The notes under the pieces were generated by a model, which was not told where the DNA came from, made no database searches, and saw only the letters and a program-made list of their open reading frames with translations. The translations under genes and the position numbers were made by a program. A DNA stretch of 64,000 nucleotides from an uncultured Thermomicrobiaceae bacterium (GTDB lineage Bacteria; Chloroflexota; Chloroflexia; Thermomicrobiales; Thermomicrobiaceae), in assembly GCA_938082375.1 (NCBI GenBank), contig CALKCJ010000026.1:1-64000 (forward strand). The letters are read 5' to 3'. Shown here piece after piece: positions 31,381 through 61,806 of the stretch (the stretch's first letter is position 1; each line of letters starts with the position of its first letter).

Positions 31381-31716
31381 TTACTCGCCAATTCGCTCGA
31401 TCCGCTCGACCGGCAGCACGAAGATGATCGCACCGCCGACCTCGACCTCGAAGTTCTCGGGAAGGTACAGCAAGCCGGGCTCGAGGGCTGGCGCATAGGG
31501 CACCACGACTTGCTTACGGCGTCGGCAGATCCGTCGGATGATCGCGGTTGCGCGGTTCACGTCGTGGTCTTCGACGCATAGTAAGAGGCTCGTGTTTTCC
31601 CGGCGGAGCAGCGCTCCCGTGCTGGCGATGCGGGTCACGCGGAAACCCTCGGCGACCAATTCGCTCACGAGCCGGTCGGCGTCCTCGTCCTGGACGATGA
31701 CCACCATCAACTTCAC
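31381..31716 (-). CDS. PII-like cyclic-di-AMP receptor (DarA/DUF970 family), paralogue 1
   Basis: This 111-residue protein matches DarA (PstA), a trimeric PII-like signal receptor. It has 'VVIVQDEDADRLVSELVAEGFRVTRIASTGALLRRENTSLLLCVED' and the C-terminal 'LPENFEVEVGGAIIFVLPVERI'. The large-loop segment and the 'EVEVGGA.VFVLPV' strand, both typical of B. subtilis DarA, are present. The canonical 'GGFL..GNTT' ligand loop reads 'GALLRRENTS', with Gly replaced by Glu. GTG 31716 has AAGGGAGC upstream. Binding of c-di-AMP is inferred from the family. A second paralogue lies at 60318-60605. Confidence 0.88.
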   Translation of the reverse strand: MKLMVVIVQDEDADRLVSELVAEGFRVTRIASTGALLRRENTSLLLCVEDHDVNRATAIIRRICRRRKQVVVPYAPALEPGLLYLPENFEVEVGGAIIFVLPVERIERIGE

Positions 31717-54970: not shown

Positions 54971-55195
54971 ATTCCTCCAATACCGGCATGACCTTCGTGC
55001 GCACGGTGCTTCTACTGGCGCGGCACAGACCGACGTCGCGTCCGACATCCCTTAGGGAAGATTCGAGCTCACGCGCTCACTGCGGCCGCAACACCTCGGG
55101 TGAGGAGACGGTTGCGGCGCGTGCCTGTGTGCTCAAGATACTAAATAAGAAGCCCGCAGCGTCACAGCGTTGGGTAGATGCAGGTCAGGTGGCCG

Positions 55196-55211
55196 AGCCC
55201 CTCGAGGGGCT
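55196..55211. repeat. 16 bp perfect palindrome upstream of alaS
   Basis: AGCCCCTCGAGGGGCT is its own reverse complement. It lies nine bases before the -35 box of the alaS promoter and could be a regulator site or a hairpin. Confidence 0.65.
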
Positions 55212-55219
55212 GTGTCGCG

Positions 55220-55248
55220 TTGACAGAGCCAGGTGGCTCTGTCATACT
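55220..55248 (+). promoter_or_regulatory. alaS promoter 1, built into a 10+10 bp palindrome
   Basis: TTGACA (55220-55225) and CATACT (55243-55248) are 17 bp apart. The perfect inverted repeat TGACAGAGCC-AGGT-GGCTCTGTCA (55221-55244) spans from the -35 box to the edge of the -10 box, as an operator would. Confidence 0.75.
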
Positions 55249-55273
55249 GGTGTACGTACATGCTCTGGCGACC

Positions 55274-55302
55274 TTGGTGCGCAACAGAGTGGCCAGTAGA
55301 AT
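55274..55302 (+). promoter_or_regulatory. alaS promoter 2 candidate
   Basis: TTGGTG (55274-55279) and TAGAAT (55297-55302) are 17 bp apart. Transcription would start near 55309, giving an 88 nt leader. No T-box core is seen in the leader. Confidence 0.5.
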
Positions 55303-55396
55303 GGAGATCGCTGTCCCGTATCGCGCAGGCGATGTGTGCGGCCACCGGGGCGGACGGTATACCAGCGGCCAGCCAGAGCAAGGAGCGCCAGCAGGC

Positions 55397-58042
55397 ATGA
55401 AGAGCAGCGACATTCGTCGTGCGTTTATCGACTTCTTTATCGAGCGTGGGCACGTGCAGGTGCCGAGTTCGTCGCTTATCCCCAGCGATCCGACGGTCTT
55501 GCTGACGACGGCCGGGATGCAGCAAATGGTGCCCTTCTTCCTGGGTCTCGAGCGACCACCGGCCAACCGGCTGGTGTCTATCCAGAAATGCTTCCGCACA
55601 GTCGATATCGATGAGGTGGGCGATGAGAGTCACCTAACCTTCTTCGAGATGCTTGGCAACTTTTCGGTTGGTGACTACTTCAAGGCGGAAGCGATCTCCT
55701 GGGCCTGGGAGTTGTTGACGGAGCGGTTCGGCATCCCCGCCGAGCGATGGTATCCCACTGTCCACCCTGACGATGACTTCTCCTACGCGTACTGGCGGGA
55801 CGTGATCGGCGTGCCGGAGTCCCGCATCTACAAGCTAGCGGACAACTGGTGGGGACCGGTGGGCGCCACGGGGCCAAACGGGCCGGACTCGGAGATCCAT
55901 TACGATCGCGGTGAGGAGTTCGGGTGCGGCCGGCCCCAGTGTGGTCCTGGGTGCGACTGTGGGCGCTTTCTCGAGACCTGGAACCTGGTCTTCATGGAGT
56001 TTTTCAAGGAGGCTGACGGCAGCCAGCGCCCCTTACCCAAAAAGAACATCGACACCGGCATGGGGCTGGAGCGGATCTCCATGATCCTTCAGGGTACCAG
56101 CTCGGTCTTCGAGACTGACCTGTTCTATCCAGTGCTGGAGGAGGCGGCCGGGCTGGCCGGCGTGCGCTATAAGCAGGACGCCCGTGTCGACCGCTCGCTT
56201 CGCGTCATTGCCGACCACGCGCGCGGTGTCACGTTCCTCATCGGTGACGGGGTCTCCCCGGGCAACGAAGGGCGTGCCTATGTCCTGCGACGGGTGCTCC
56301 GCCGGGCTGTCCGCCACGGCCGGTTGCTCGGCCTGCAGCAGCCGTTCCTCGGTGCTTTGGCCGATGTGGTCATCGAGCTCTTCGGTCAGCAGTATCCGGA
56401 ACTCGTCGAGAAGCGCGACCGGATCAAGCGCGTGATCGCACACGAAGAGGAGCATTTCAGCCGGACGCTGGCTTCTGGCATGGCGCGCTTCGATGCGCTT
56501 GTCGACCAGCTCAAGCGAGCTGGCGAGACCACGATTCCTGGGGTTGAGGCGTTCCGCCTCTACGATACCTATGGCTTCCCGCTGGAGCTGACCGAGGAGC
56601 TCGCGAGAGAAGAGGGCCTCGGGGTCGATCGTGCCGGCTTCGAGTCGGCGTTGGAACACCAGCGCGTGGTGAGTCGGGCGGGCGCCGCCACCCGTTTCGC
56701 GGACACCGTTCGCCAGCGAGCCGAACTCTACGCCCGCTTTAGCGTGCACCCGACTGAGTTCCTCGGCTACTCGCAACTCGAGGCCGAGGCGACGATCCTT
56801 GGCCTCCTCGACCTGACGCGGGCGATCGAGACCGCTGAGGCTGGCCAGGAGATCGAGGTGATCTTGGATCGCACGCCCTTCTATGGCGAAGCCGGTGGGC
56901 AGGTGGGTGATACCGGGATCATCCACACAGAGACAGGTGTGGCGGATGTCCTCGATGCCCAGCGGCCGACACCGGAGTTAACCGTGCACCACTGCCGAGT
57001 GCGCGAAGGCTTCCTGCAGCTGGGGCAGCGCGCCAGAGCGGTGGTTGACAGCGAGCGCCGGGCGGCGATTAAACGCAATCACACCGCCACACACCTGCTC
57101 CACGCAGCGCTTCGCCGAATACTGGGCGAGCACGCGCAGCAAGCAGGCTCGCTAGTCGCGCCGGATCGGCTGCGCTTCGACTTCACGCACCTGGAGGCGC
57201 TAAGCCAGGAGCAACTCTGGGCCATCCAGAGCTTCGTCAACGAGCATGTGCTTCGTGACGAGCCGGTACTGGCTGAGTACAAGCCATATCGGGAGGCGAT
57301 CGCTGAGGGAGCTCTCGCCCTCTTCGGAGAGAAGTATGCGGAGCTGGTTCGCGTCGTGTCGATTCCGGGCGTGAGTATGGAGCTGTGTGGGGGTACTCAC
57401 GTCTCACGTACGGGTGAGATCGGCCTCTTCCTCATCACCGAAGAGTTCAGCGTGGCCAGCGGTGTGCGTCGCATCGAGGCGATCACCGGCAAGCGCAGCG
57501 CGGAGTTCGCGTGGGAATTGCTCGGCGTCGCGCGGACGCTTTCTCAGCAGCTTCACGCGCCGATCACGCAACTACCTGCGGAAGTCGAGCAGCTCCGTGA
57601 AGAGGTGCGTCAGGCACGGCGTGAAAGCGAGCGCCTGCGCGCTGAGCTCGCATCCGAGCGTGCTACCCACTTGGTACACCAGGCGATTGCTGTCGATGGG
57701 ATCAAGGTCTTGAGCGCGCGGGTGGACGCTCCGAGTGTCGATGTGTTGCGTGCCATCGGCGACCGGCTGCGCGAGCGGCTCGGCTCTGGCGTCGTCATCC
57801 TGGGTACGTCGATCGATGACCGACCGACACTGATCGCGATGGCGACACGCGACGCAGTGCAGCGCGGTGTCGATGCCGGGAAGGTGATCAGAGCGATCGC
57901 GCCCATCGTCGGCGGGCGCGGCGGAGGCCGAGCTGAGGTAGCCCAGGGCGGCGGAAGCGACCCGTCGCGGTTAGAGGAGGCGCTCGCTGCGGCCCGAACG
58001 GTCATCGAGCAACAGGTTCGGACGGCCCACGCCAGCGGCTGA
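55397..58042 (+). CDS. alaS: Alanyl-tRNA synthetase
   Basis: This 881-residue class II synthetase has the catalytic core 'RRAFIDFFIERGHVQVPSSSLIPSDPTVLLTTAGMQQMVPFFLG', 'QKCFRTVDIDEVGDESHLTFFEMLGNFSVGDYFK' and 'NIDTGMGLERISMILQG'. The editing domain has 'RNHTATHLLHAALRRIL' (H-x3-H) and 'SMELCGGTHVSRTGEIG' (C-x3-H). The C-terminal C-Ala domain ends 'GGRGGGRAEVAQGGG'. ATG 55397 has AAGGAG 11 bases upstream. Length is normal. It charges tRNA-Ala and clears Ser/Gly errors. Confidence 0.97.
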   Translation: MKSSDIRRAFIDFFIERGHVQVPSSSLIPSDPTVLLTTAGMQQMVPFFLGLERPPANRLVSIQKCFRTVDIDEVGDESHLTFFEMLGNFSVGDYFKAEAISWAWELLTERFGIPAERWYPTVHPDDDFSYAYWRDVIGVPESRIYKLADNWWGPVGATGPNGPDSEIHYDRGEEFGCGRPQCGPGCDCGRFLETWNLVFMEFFKEADGSQRPLPKKNIDTGMGLERISMILQGTSSVFETDLFYPVLEEAAGLAGVRYKQDARVDRSLRVIADHARGVTFLIGDGVSPGNEGRAYVLRRVLRRAVRHGRLLGLQQPFLGALADVVIELFGQQYPELVEKRDRIKRVIAHEEEHFSRTLASGMARFDALVDQLKRAGETTIPGVEAFRLYDTYGFPLELTEELAREEGLGVDRAGFESALEHQRVVSRAGAATRFADTVRQRAELYARFSVHPTEFLGYSQLEAEATILGLLDLTRAIETAEAGQEIEVILDRTPFYGEAGGQVGDTGIIHTETGVADVLDAQRPTPELTVHHCRVREGFLQLGQRARAVVDSERRAAIKRNHTATHLLHAALRRILGEHAQQAGSLVAPDRLRFDFTHLEALSQEQLWAIQSFVNEHVLRDEPVLAEYKPYREAIAEGALALFGEKYAELVRVVSIPGVSMELCGGTHVSRTGEIGLFLITEEFSVASGVRRIEAITGKRSAEFAWELLGVARTLSQQLHAPITQLPAEVEQLREEVRQARRESERLRAELASERATHLVHQAIAVDGIKVLSARVDAPSVDVLRAIGDRLRERLGSGVVILGTSIDDRPTLIAMATRDAVQRGVDAGKVIRAIAPIVGGRGGGRAEVAQGGGSDPSRLEEALAAARTVIEQQVRTAHASG

Positions 58043-58069: not shown

Positions 58070-59803
58070 ATGACGACGAGCAGCGCTACGCGATTCGTCT
58101 TACGGGATGACCGTGATCTCGATCGCTTGCTCGAGCGTCTCACCTCCGGTCGAGCGGAGCGGCTGACCGTCGAGATCCCGAGGGGCAGCAGCGCTCTTTT
58201 GGCCGCGAGCGAATTCCGTCGTATCCGGGCTGCCTTGAACGAGTCGGCTGTATCCGTGAGTCTCTGCCTCGATCCTGACGACCGCCGCCGCCGGAGCATG
58301 GCGTGGATGCTTGGCCTACCGATGGACGAGGACTGCGAAGCAGGCGAAGCTCTTCGAGATACGGATGCCCGTGAGCCGCGCAGGGCATCCGACCCGTTGG
58401 TGTTGCCCTCGGGTGAGCAACCGACGGCGGATCTCGGCACATATAGGCCCAGCGCGTGGGGTCGCCTACGCCCTGGGGGGACACAGCACCGCTCCAGTAC
58501 CGGCACCATCGTCGTCGCGACGAAGGACCTCGAGCGTGGTGCTAGCACCGGCTCAGCTTCGCTCGGCCACCGGCAGGGGCGTGTGCTCGAACGGTTCGCC
58601 AGCGCTATGACTAATGGCCGGGCCAGACGACCGGCACGCAGGCCAGAGGTGAATCGCCTCCAGACACAAGTCATGCGCGTCCTGCTCGTAGCGTGTCTGC
58701 TGTTGATCGCTGCCGCAACGGGTGGCACGCTGACCATGGTTTTGGTGCCGCGCGCCACCATCACGCTCGTCCCGGAGACGCGAACGCTCGAGCTCGAGTT
58801 CACTTATGGCCTGACGACAAGCGGACGCCAACTCGACCTGGCGCTCACGCCGCGTGAGATCGAGCGCAGGATCAGTGTCGACCTGTCAGCGCCCGTCACC
58901 GGTGAGCGCTTTGAACCCGACGGTACGGCCAGTGGCTCGGTCGACCTCATCAACCCGTTTCCACAGGCGGTGCCGGTTCCAGCCGGCACCTCGCTCAGCG
59001 GGAAGAATGGCAGCCGCTACCTCACGGTCGAAGAGGTGACGGTACCGGCTGCCGACCCGTTCGGTTCCCTGTCGTTCGGTTCAACCCGCGTAGCGATCCA
59101 AGCGGAGGTGGCTGGGCCTGACGGAAATGCTGATCCCGGTGTGGTGACGGGGCAACTCGAGAACGGCGTGTTCTATCGAAACCAGGAAGCTGTCACCGGC
59201 GGTACGTTGAAACGCGTAACGTTAGTGACGGAGGCGGATATCGAGGGGCTCAAGGAGCGGGCCCGGGCTGAACTCCAGGAGGGAGTAACGCAGGCTCTCC
59301 GTGAGTCGCTCGCACCGGGGGAGCTGCTAGTCGGCGGCAGCACCGAAATCGGCGAACCGAGCTACGAGTTCAGCCACCGGGTAGGGGAAGCAACGGATCA
59401 GCTCACGGTGCACGCGGCGCTGACGGTGCGTGCGCGCGCTTACAACCCGGAAGCGATGCACCAACAGGCCCAGGATGAGGCCGGCCGTCGGCTCGCGCGG
59501 TTGGCGGGGCCGCACGATGTTGTGCTGGGCAACACGCTCGCTTTCTCACCACCTGAGACTAGCGACTCGACCGGCCTGACCTGGCGTATCAGGGCGCGTG
59601 GCCAAGTGCGAACTGTGTTGACAGAGGCCCAACTGGCGGCCGTACGCCAGGCGGTGCTCGGCCGGTCGCTGGACGAAGCGGAAGCGGTAGTGCGCCAGAT
59701 CGATGGGATAGCCGGGGCGAGGATCACGCTGGAGCCCGACTGGGCCCCGCGCCGCATGCCAGAGTTCGCCTCCCGGATCGAGGTGGTCGTCGAGAGTGAA
59801 TGA
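58070..59803 (+). CDS. Membrane-anchored baseplate-J-like protein
   Basis: This 577-residue protein has an N-terminal cytoplasmic region (1-195, basic, low complexity after 100) and one membrane helix (about 203-224). The extracytoplasmic part contains the baseplate J/gp47-type pattern 'TGSVDLIN...PVPAGTSLSGKNGSRYLTVEEVTVPA' (here 'ASGSVDLINPFPQAVPVPAGTSL'). A repeating alpha/beta tail ends 'GIAGARITLEPDWAPRRMPEFASRIEVVVE'. Phage proteins of this family build baseplates, but this is a single chromosomal gene between alaS and ruvX with no phage neighbours. The function is unknown. ruvX overlaps its end by 8 bp. Confidence 0.75.
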   Translation: MTTSSATRFVLRDDRDLDRLLERLTSGRAERLTVEIPRGSSALLAASEFRRIRAALNESAVSVSLCLDPDDRRRRSMAWMLGLPMDEDCEAGEALRDTDAREPRRASDPLVLPSGEQPTADLGTYRPSAWGRLRPGGTQHRSSTGTIVVATKDLERGASTGSASLGHRQGRVLERFASAMTNGRARRPARRPEVNRLQTQVMRVLLVACLLLIAAATGGTLTMVLVPRATITLVPETRTLELEFTYGLTTSGRQLDLALTPREIERRISVDLSAPVTGERFEPDGTASGSVDLINPFPQAVPVPAGTSLSGKNGSRYLTVEEVTVPAADPFGSLSFGSTRVAIQAEVAGPDGNADPGVVTGQLENGVFYRNQEAVTGGTLKRVTLVTEADIEGLKERARAELQEGVTQALRESLAPGELLVGGSTEIGEPSYEFSHRVGEATDQLTVHAALTVRARAYNPEAMHQQAQDEAGRRLARLAGPHDVVLGNTLAFSPPETSDSTGLTWRIRARGQVRTVLTEAQLAAVRQAVLGRSLDEAEAVVRQIDGIAGARITLEPDWAPRRMPEFASRIEVVVESE

Positions 59804-60269
59804 GCAAGAGCGTCGTCGCTATCTGGGGCTCGACATCGGTGGTCGGAGGATCGGTGTGGCGGTCAGCGACGAGTTGGGAATGATCGCAAGCCCGCTCGAA
59901 TCGCTGGAGCGCTCCGGGCGTGGGATCGAGCGCCTGCGAGCGCTGGTGGAACAGTTTGATCCCCAGGCGATCGTGATTGGGCTCCCGACCGGCATGTCGG
60001 GTCGCGAGGGACAGCAGGCTGCCGAGGTGCGAGAGTTCGGAGAACAGCTTCGAGCGTTGCTGCATCGGCCGATCGTGTACTGGGACGAGCGGCTCACGAC
60101 CGCCATGGCTGAGCGGGCGCTGATCGAGGCTCGCACCCGGCGTGCCAGGCGAAGAGGGATCGTTGATGCTGTAGCCGCCGCCTTGATTTTGCAAAGCTAT
60201 CTCGACTCGCGGCGAAGGAGACACGACGCTAAGGAATCGGGGGGCGGCCCGCGAACGAACGAAGCTTGA
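59796..60269 (+). CDS. ruvX: Holliday-junction resolvase-like RuvX/YqgF
   Basis: This 157-residue RNase-H-fold protein has 'YLGLDIGGRRIGVAVSDELGMIASPLESL', 'IVIGLPTGMSGREGQQAAEVREFGEQL' and 'VYWDERLTTAMAERAL', and a final D-A-V-A-A helix ('RGIVDAVAAALILQSYLD'). The acidic residues of the active site are present. It acts in 16S rRNA 5'-end maturation and perhaps in recombination. GTG 59796 overlaps the preceding gene. The 27 residues after the catalytic fold are charged and variable. Confidence 0.92.
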   Translation: MNEQERRRYLGLDIGGRRIGVAVSDELGMIASPLESLERSGRGIERLRALVEQFDPQAIVIGLPTGMSGREGQQAAEVREFGEQLRALLHRPIVYWDERLTTAMAERALIEARTRRARRRGIVDAVAAALILQSYLDSRRRRHDAKESGGGPRTNEA

Positions 60270-60294
60270 CGGCCTCGCTTTCCGCGGCTATACT
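60266..60294 (+). promoter_or_regulatory. Promoter of DarA paralogue 2
   Basis: TTGACG (60266-60271) and TATACT (60289-60294) are 17 bp apart. The -35 box overlaps the ruvX stop codon, and the gene starts 23 bp after the -10 box. Confidence 0.7.
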
Positions 60295-60317: not shown

Positions 60318-60605
60318 ATGAAGCTGATCGTAGCGGTAGTCCAAAACGACGATGCAGACGCGGTGATCGACGCGCTGCTGGAAAGCAACTTCCGGGCCAC
60401 GCGGTTGGCGAGCACCGGAGGGTTCCTGCGGCGCGGTAATACGACTCTCCTTATCGGGGTCCAAGACGAGCAAGTAGATACCGTGCTCGAGCTGATCCGC
60501 GAGCATGCCGTGACGCGGACGCGACACCAAGGCCCGGCTGGCGAAGTGCAACCAGCAGCAGCGACCGTTTTTGTCCTCAACCTAGAAGACTACCAGCGTT
60601 TGTAG
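60318..60605 (+). CDS. PII-like cyclic-di-AMP receptor homologue (DarA/DUF970), shortened paralogue 2
   Basis: This 95-residue protein is very close to B. subtilis DarA over its first 50 residues: 'MKLIVAVVQNDDADAVIDALLESNFRATRLASTGGFLRRGNTTLLIGVQ'. The canonical ligand loop 'TGGFL..GNTT' is intact. The middle is shortened: the large loop and the 'EVEVGGA' segment of typical DarA are missing, leaving 'RTRHQGPAGEVQPAAATVFVLNLEDYQRL'. It therefore keeps the nucleotide-contacting loop but not the long signalling loop. ATG 60318 follows GGGAGCCGAGG. It has its own promoter. Confidence 0.88.
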   Translation: MKLIVAVVQNDDADAVIDALLESNFRATRLASTGGFLRRGNTTLLIGVQDEQVDTVLELIREHAVTRTRHQGPAGEVQPAAATVFVLNLEDYQRL

Positions 60606-60666: not shown

Positions 60667-61806
60667 ATGAGCCTGCCATTGACCTTTCAGGTGCGGCTCA
60701 AGTGGATGCAACTTCGTTTTCCGGTGGTGCACCTGCTCCTCAGCCTCGGGGCTGCAGGCCTAATCGGGTCGCTTGGTCAGGCATACCAGCCGCAATCGTT
60801 TCCCGTTGCATGGTGGCTGGTCGCTGTGTGGCTGGGTATCTGCTGGGTGACGGCGCTCGCGACTCATCTGGTCGGGCATGTCGTCGCCGCCAGGTCAATC
60901 GGCGAGGTGCCGTACCGGTGTGTGCTCTGGGTATTCGGGGACACCCCCGATGGCTACCGGCTACCCCGAGCTCCGGGGCCGGAGAGTGTCATCGCCCTCG
61001 GGGGGCCGGTGGCAAACATCGTCCTCGGTGCGACCGTAGCGGCTCTGTGGTGGAGCGATTATGGGGCCTGGAAGGCGATGGGTACCGCCTGGCTCAGCCT
61101 GTCCGTCGCCTCATTTACTCTGGGGCTGGTCAACTTGTTACCAGGGCAACCGCTCGACGGCGGGAGGATACTCACCGCGCTGCTCCTGTACTTGCATGGT
61201 GCCTCGAGTAAGGTTCCTCGGCTCATACTGGCGCTCGGGAGGCTGATGGCTCTGTTCCTTCTCGGACTCGCCATTATGCTTCTCCAAGTCGAGGTGCGAG
61301 CCGCGATTCTGGGGCTGTGGCTAGGCTGGCTTGGCTGGTCGCTCGGTAGAGCGCTCCGCTGGGAGGGCCTTCGGTTGATGACGGCCACTATAGGCAGGGC
61401 GAAGCCGGCTTCGTCACTTATCGGCATGCAAACACGAGTGCAAGCGGATCAGCCGATTAGCGCGATCGCCGAAACGCTGTTGGCGTCCGATCGTTCGCCG
61501 CTGGCGCTCGTGCTCGACGGCGATGCCGTGATCGGGGTCCTGGTGACTGACCAGCTCATACCTTTACTGCGCCGCCGGATCTGTGGATCCGTGCGTCGCG
61601 TGATGGTTCCCATCGAGCGATTGCCGCAGGTCAGCGGCCAGGAGCCGGCGGTGAGCGCTTTCGAGCTGCTTCTGGATTCAGGCGCCCCGGCCGTTCTCGT
61701 CACCGAGGGGCAACGGGTCATCGGGGCGCTCGCCCTGGGATCGCTGAGCAAACTGCTGAGGCTGCAGAGCGCGCACTTGACGGCGGTGGCGGACAATTCA
61801 GGCTGA
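60667..61806 (+). CDS. M50-type site-2 protease homologue with CBS domains, lacking the catalytic Glu
   Basis: This 379-residue membrane protein has about six hydrophobic segments and a layout like Rip3/SpoIVFB-type metalloproteases. The zinc motif expected as H-E-x-x-H reads H67-L-V-G-H71, so the catalytic Glu is Leu. The second motif 'NLLPGQPLDGGRI' with D164 is intact, as is the 'ALGGPVANIVLG' segment. The last 150 residues form a CBS pair ('DQPISAIAETLLASDRSPLALVLDGDAVIGVLVTDQLI'). Zinc binding may persist but proteolysis should be lost. ATG 60667 has GGAGAAAG upstream. Confidence 0.85.
   Translation: MSLPLTFQVRLKWMQLRFPVVHLLLSLGAAGLIGSLGQAYQPQSFPVAWWLVAVWLGICWVTALATHLVGHVVAARSIGEVPYRCVLWVFGDTPDGYRLPRAPGPESVIALGGPVANIVLGATVAALWWSDYGAWKAMGTAWLSLSVASFTLGLVNLLPGQPLDGGRILTALLLYLHGASSKVPRLILALGRLMALFLLGLAIMLLQVEVRAAILGLWLGWLGWSLGRALRWEGLRLMTATIGRAKPASSLIGMQTRVQADQPISAIAETLLASDRSPLALVLDGDAVIGVLVTDQLIPLLRRRICGSVRRVMVPIERLPQVSGQEPAVSAFELLLDSGAPAVLVTEGQRVIGALALGSLSKLLRLQSAHLTAVADNSG

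Follow-up and report, generated by a model that had tools for sequence, protein, structure and literature searches.

The window analysed here is a 64,000-nucleotide stretch of DNA from an uncultured Thermomicrobiaceae bacterium. Towards its end a gene for a site-2 protease (S2P) homologue closes a conserved gene cluster, directly after a gene for a PII-like c-di-AMP receptor (CdAMP_rec). The features of this locus are as follows.

55178-58042, plus strand: first gene of the conserved cluster, alaS.
58070-59803, plus strand: upstream neighbour, gene for a membrane-anchored protein with a weak Baseplate_J-like Pfam match.
59796-60269, plus strand: upstream neighbour, ruvX.
60266-60294, plus strand: sigma-70-like promoter TTGACG-17-TATACT before the CdAMP_rec/S2P pair.
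60318-60605, plus strand: short-form CdAMP_rec (PII-like c-di-AMP receptor) gene, Pfam E 2.7e-30.
60667-61806, plus strand: gene for the putative S2P (M50B)-CBS pseudoprotease, a complete ORF of 379 aa.
60667-61371, plus strand: membrane (protease-fold) half, aa 1-235, delimited by AlphaFold2 helices and the match to M. jannaschii S2P (MjS2P, 3b4r).
60865-60879, plus strand: HLVGH, aa 67-71, at the HExxH position; Leu68 replaces the catalytic Glu and both His are kept.
60940-60942, plus strand: Asp92 (FGD), a Gly (FGG) in almost all homologues.
61132-61164, plus strand: second motif N156-LLPGQPL-D164-GG, with Asp164 as the predicted third metal ligand.
61408-61782, plus strand: degenerate CBS pair, aa 248-372, located by AlphaFold2 model and fold search.

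The ORF matched Peptidase_M50 (PF02163) above the Pfam cut-off with an E-value of 9.9e-9, and similarity in both sequence and fold identifies its product as an M50B (S2P) homologue. The HExxH motif of active M50 peptidases is replaced by HLVGH (codons CAT CTG GTC GGG CAT), which phmmer (HMMER) aligned exactly with the HExxH of MjS2P and with the HQLGH of the SpoIVFB E44Q entry. A misaligned motif, with the true HExxH elsewhere, was rejected as the ORF contains no other HxxxH and the HMMER and structure-guided placements agree. The second motif, NLLPGQPLDGG, is intact, and the His, His and Asp that act as metal ligands in this family are present in the sequence as H67, H71 and D164. The original prediction had described a missing Glu at HLVGH together with retention of both His and of the second-motif Asp; the codons and the alignment to MjS2P confirm the former, and the three ligands are moreover kept across the genus. 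The protein does not fall into the RseP-type (Rip1/RseP) class, scoring 15.5 bits against the TIGR00054 equivalog cut-off of 147.55 bits in NCBIfam.

A Pfam search returned no CBS match for the window protein, and 4 of 6 orthologues gave matches with a best E-value of 0.006. In the AlphaFold2 model (pLDDT 90, pTM 0.84) a clear CBS-pair fold is predicted, and in the fold search the model matched MjS2P 3b4r (Z 21.1, rmsd 3.0 over 215 residues) as well as many CBS pairs, including OpuCA with c-di-AMP and DarB. The C-terminal CBS pair that characterizes the S2P-CBS (M50B) subgroup is therefore recognized by model and fold search, its sequence signal being weak. Judged from the model, the CBS domains that had been described after the membrane half are real, though degenerate in sequence. 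An S2P and CBS fold was still predicted for a protein of genus g3 that lacks the motif altogether (pLDDT 87.6, MjS2P Z 17.8), which is consistent with a retained scaffold. The alignments behind the AlphaFold2 models, that of the g3 protein included, contained many intact S2Ps, and this favours an S2P fold. Three degenerate proteins (L073, L092 and L100) pass the Pfam CBS cut-off and fail that of M50. The role of CBS domains in S2Ps has been described as enigmatic (PMC11486902).

The window genus, Thermalbibacter and relatives within the Thermomicrobiaceae, was represented by four sequenced species in four assemblies. The Glu is absent in all four: HLVGH in the window, HLLGH in L008, HIAGH in L009 (HRbin26) and HVTGH in L010 (Thermalbibacter longus). 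Its position is thus occupied by L, L, I and V, encoded by different codons, while both His, Asn156 and Asp164 are invariant. The change from FGG to FGD at residue 92 is confined to these same four proteins. A sequencing error or one-off point mutation was rejected on account of this pattern, seen in four species and four assemblies, including the isolate Thermalbibacter longus, with different codons and with both His, Asn156 and Asp164 kept. A specific role for a conserved Leu was likewise rejected; what is conserved is not Leu but only a hydrophobic residue in place of Glu. All four copies are full length without stops at dS values of up to about 1, and a pseudogene in this genus was rejected based on the intact frames and a dN/dS of 0.22-0.29.

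In genus g4 (Sphaerobacter-type) the orthologues L011, on a contig of Sphaerobacter sp. HOG56, and L012 hold the corresponding position behind the CdAMP_rec gene with an intact motif, reading HELGH and HEVGH. The original prediction had held that HExxH in close relatives would indicate a point mutation or error. Within the genus no copy has it, and it appears in the next genus, Sphaerobacter, in a syntenic orthologue, which indicates a lineage-specific loss in a formerly active protease. The four other M50 proteins of the window genome are all intact (L001 HELGH, L002 HELAH, L003 HELGH and L006 HEFCH). Among these, L001 gives a full RseP-type match and is the second, intact Rip-type protease that had been thought worth seeking in this genome, while L002 and L003 are S2P-CBS paralogues.

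Nearly all genomes of the order Thermomicrobiales contain a short-form CdAMP_rec gene, and in 23 species of the order it is followed by an S2P-CBS homologue. An intact HExxH with Asp is found in 9 of these 23 linked proteins (2 in g4, 2 in f2, 4 in f3 and 1 in f4) and HDAAH in one (G023). Another 5 have lost the Glu and kept His, His and Asp, namely the four of the window genus and G020 (HRYAH), and in 8 the metal site is incomplete or gone (3 in g3 and 5 in f5). The active site is hence incomplete in 13 of 23 linked S2Ps versus none of 93 homologues not linked to this receptor, all of which keep HExxH and DG. Besides the genomes that hold the linked proteins, Actinomycetota, Cyanobacteriota and other groups supplied these 93; for the 66 more distant ones the scan patterns included the second motif, which leaves the HExxH count as their one unbiased figure. 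The S2P gene is missing, with the receptor retained, from genus g5 and most of f5, where unrelated genes follow instead (for example one that by eye we take to be aroA), and it is therefore dispensable. In the HDAAH protein of G023 (L066) Asp replaces the catalytic Glu with the metal ligands kept, and this is possibly an intermediate. In the f3 proteins L065, L066, L067, L068 and L076 the FGG that nearly all homologues carry behind the first motif is replaced by xGA or LGN, so that the hairpin on the substrate side is changed even though HExxH is for the most part intact in this group.

After the motif columns had been taken out of the alignment, the tree set all 23 linked proteins on one side of a branch with a support of 100/100, or 99/95 in a larger tree, although several of them sit on long branches whose placement is uncertain. 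Parsimony gave three changes from intact to lost: in the window genus together with G020, in g3 and in f5. Holding the first two losses together was not rejected (p-AU 0.20), so that two losses in the linked lineage are secure and three are likely. By the same value, neither a single loss nor two within family f1 is preferred. G020, the sister line of the window genus, was placed with a support of 88/90. Its membrane half is identical to that of the window genus at 36 of 218 aligned sites, and H67, H71, N156 and D164 are all among them. By a simple draw the chance of this is about 6e-4, a figure that ignores the prior conservation of such residues and the 88/90 placement of G020. The receptor adjacency of the intact L110 (G150) was considered as an outgroup member of the linked clade and rejected, as the tree places L110 among the unlinked homologues.

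Among the four congeners the window gene has a dN/dS of 0.22-0.29. The corresponding ranges are 0.04-0.08 (intact L003-type paralogue), 0.015-0.05 (CdAMP_rec) and 0.06-0.14 (ruvX). The window gene is thus under purifying selection but loosely constrained, its dN/dS exceeding that of the intact paralogue about fourfold. In 5 of the 6 pairs within the genus, similarity is higher in the CBS half than in the membrane half (79-89% versus 58-75%), the closest pair, window and L008, giving 80 for CBS versus 85 for membrane. In g3, where the motif is missing and L072 is truncated, the CBS half is 59-87% alike versus 29-39% for the membrane half. The intact paralogue shows the reverse, its membrane half being as alike as the CBS half or more so. 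When the window gene is compared with its HRbin26 orthologue (L009), dS is 0.19 in the 3' half (61375-61803, CBS) and 1.30 in the 5' half. The low value suggests recombination or gene conversion between the species, which inflates the CBS similarity of this pair, and part of the CBS conservation within the window genus may be due to recombination.

The cluster runs in the order alaS, the 58070 gene, ruvX, CdAMP_rec and S2P, with S2P last, and is kept wholly or partly in f1 to f5 while downstream content varies. Throughout the order the 58070-59803 gene keeps its place next to alaS and ruvX. Because the whole block is conserved, finding receptor and S2P side by side says less about a joint function than it would seem to. 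The distance from the promoter to the CdAMP_rec start is 24 bp, and relatives have TTGAC...TATA(A/C)T at the corresponding place. In g4 the ruvX region and CdAMP_rec are separated by a long ORF (L191, 2696-4531, minus strand), which does not part the receptor from the S2P gene. The upstream receptor homologue noted in the original prediction is the gene at 60318-60605, and its Pfam CdAMP_rec match and ligand-contact residues are those of a putative DarA/PstA receptor. It keeps R26, T28, G34-G35-F36-L37, N41 and G47 at the same numbers as PstA, residues which in S. aureus PstA make contact with c-di-AMP or are required for it (PMC4316997). It differs from DarA/PstA in its length of 95 aa, in a shorter variable region from Arg67 to the GGA motif and in that GGA reads AAA, and scores 102.4 bits, below the 140-bit cut-off of the DarA equivalog NF058593 in NCBIfam. 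The genome encodes one DAC-domain protein (diadenylate cyclase) and four CdAMP_rec genes in all, a second one, of normal length, lying in the window at 31393-31716 on the minus strand.

The Glu of HExxH is the general base in S2P hydrolysis. As the E44Q change at this Glu abolishes proteolysis by SpoIVFB (PMC11486902), a protein that has lost the Glu would be a pseudoprotease, and peptide-bond hydrolysis has almost certainly been lost here, judging from sequence, while metal binding at the His-His-Asp site is presumably kept. The fold is retained, the catalytic residue is lost and the loss is conserved across orthologues. The pseudoprotease of the original prediction held up as regards the genus-wide loss of the Glu and the retained ligands and fold, from which we infer the loss of activity; the binding of zinc or substrates and the sensor role that it also proposed stay suggestions, as does c-di-AMP binding by the CBS pair. 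We see even chances that this is a genuine S2P pseudoprotease in which metal site, fold and CBS pair are kept and which is probably the membrane partner of the PII-like receptor. We chose the partner reading for its likeness to GlnK-AmtB and SbtB-SbtA, where a PII-type protein works with a partner in the membrane. In the ancestor of Thermomicrobiales an active CBS-type S2P would already have stood beside the PII-like c-di-AMP receptor. On the line to the window genus the general-base Glu would then have been exchanged for a hydrophobic residue, with S2P fold, His-His-Asp site and CBS pair kept. The pseudoprotease would most likely work as a membrane-embedded docking and sensing protein. Hypothetically, the receptor could bind c-di-AMP and dock on the cytoplasmic face or the CBS pair, and the pseudoprotease could relay the signal without cleavage, through the retention or release of a membrane client. 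Gating of the S2P-CBS protein by the CdAMP_rec protein encoded beside it, making the former an S2P-family membrane receptor in c-di-AMP signalling, is by analogy possible though on balance unlikely. An ancestral c-di-AMP-controlled intramembrane protease, still so in Sphaerobacter and repeatedly turned into a non-cutting form in Thermomicrobiales, is put forward just as tentatively.

The elevated dN/dS, the stepwise loss of the motif, the degenerate copies on long branches and the lack of an S2P gene behind the receptor in g5 and in most f5 members would all fit a relic in decay, left without a substrate and drifting towards deletion as in neighbouring lineages. This is nonetheless rather improbable: four copies remain full length at dS up to about 1, their dN/dS is far below 1, the metal ligands and the CBS fold persist, and L073, L092 and L100 still pass the CBS cut-off while failing that of M50.

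The protein could also act without the c-di-AMP receptor, pairing with an intact L003-type S2P-CBS protein as a decoy or dominant negative like the iRhoms. L002 and L003 are at hand in the same genome, and SpoIVFB dimers or tetramers have been seen, possibly as a detergent artefact (PMC11486902). However, the L003-type paralogue is present in g5, which lacks this gene, and the two genes have no genetic link, which makes such pairing improbable. Slow cleavage might alternatively persist by an altered mechanism, supported by another carboxylate such as Asp92 of FGD or by metal-bound water alone. The metal ligands are kept and Asp92 replaces a near-universal Gly in precisely the four proteins of the genus. 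This we regard as very improbable, since Gln for Glu at the same place abolishes SpoIVFB activity (PMC11486902) and G020, also without the Glu, has no Asp there (WSPIGE).

Within the receptor-linked lineage the homologues form a natural series, from intact proteases through proteins that lack the Glu alone to ones in which the metal site has gone completely, and the CBS half persists in all of them. Such a series could reveal the function of CBS domains in S2Ps and the binding partners of DarA/PstA-type receptors, few of whose targets are known. A literature search, with most subscription papers outside its reach, found no bacterial S2P pseudoprotease, no report joining c-di-AMP receptors to S2Ps and no papers on Thermomicrobiales S2Ps.

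The window protein shares its fold, HxxxH and NxxPxxxxDG layout and C-terminal CBS region with MjS2P (3b4r) and SpoIVFB (8vjl/8vjm), which have the general-base Glu where it has Leu. The iRhoms, catalytically dead relatives of intramembrane proteases (PMC3149277), had been offered as a precedent; they belong to the unrelated rhomboid serine protease fold, and the comparison stands as analogy only. S2P pseudoproteases are already known from plants, and a nearer precedent is EGY3, a chloroplast S2P homologue without the catalytic motif that is reported to act without proteolysis (PMC10978774). Both are S2P-family members without a complete catalytic motif. EGY3 however lacks HExxH as a whole, whereas the window protein lacks only the Glu and keeps His, His, Asn and Asp; unlike EGY3 it is bacterial, carries a CBS pair and is encoded beside a c-di-AMP receptor. 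As regards the way it may work, the arrangement resembles GlnK-AmtB and SbtB-SbtA, in which a PII-like adenyl-nucleotide receptor is encoded beside a membrane protein and, for SbtB, docks on this adjacent-encoded partner (PMC10117731). The partner in those systems is a transporter, while here it would be a protein of S2P fold, to which gene adjacency points.
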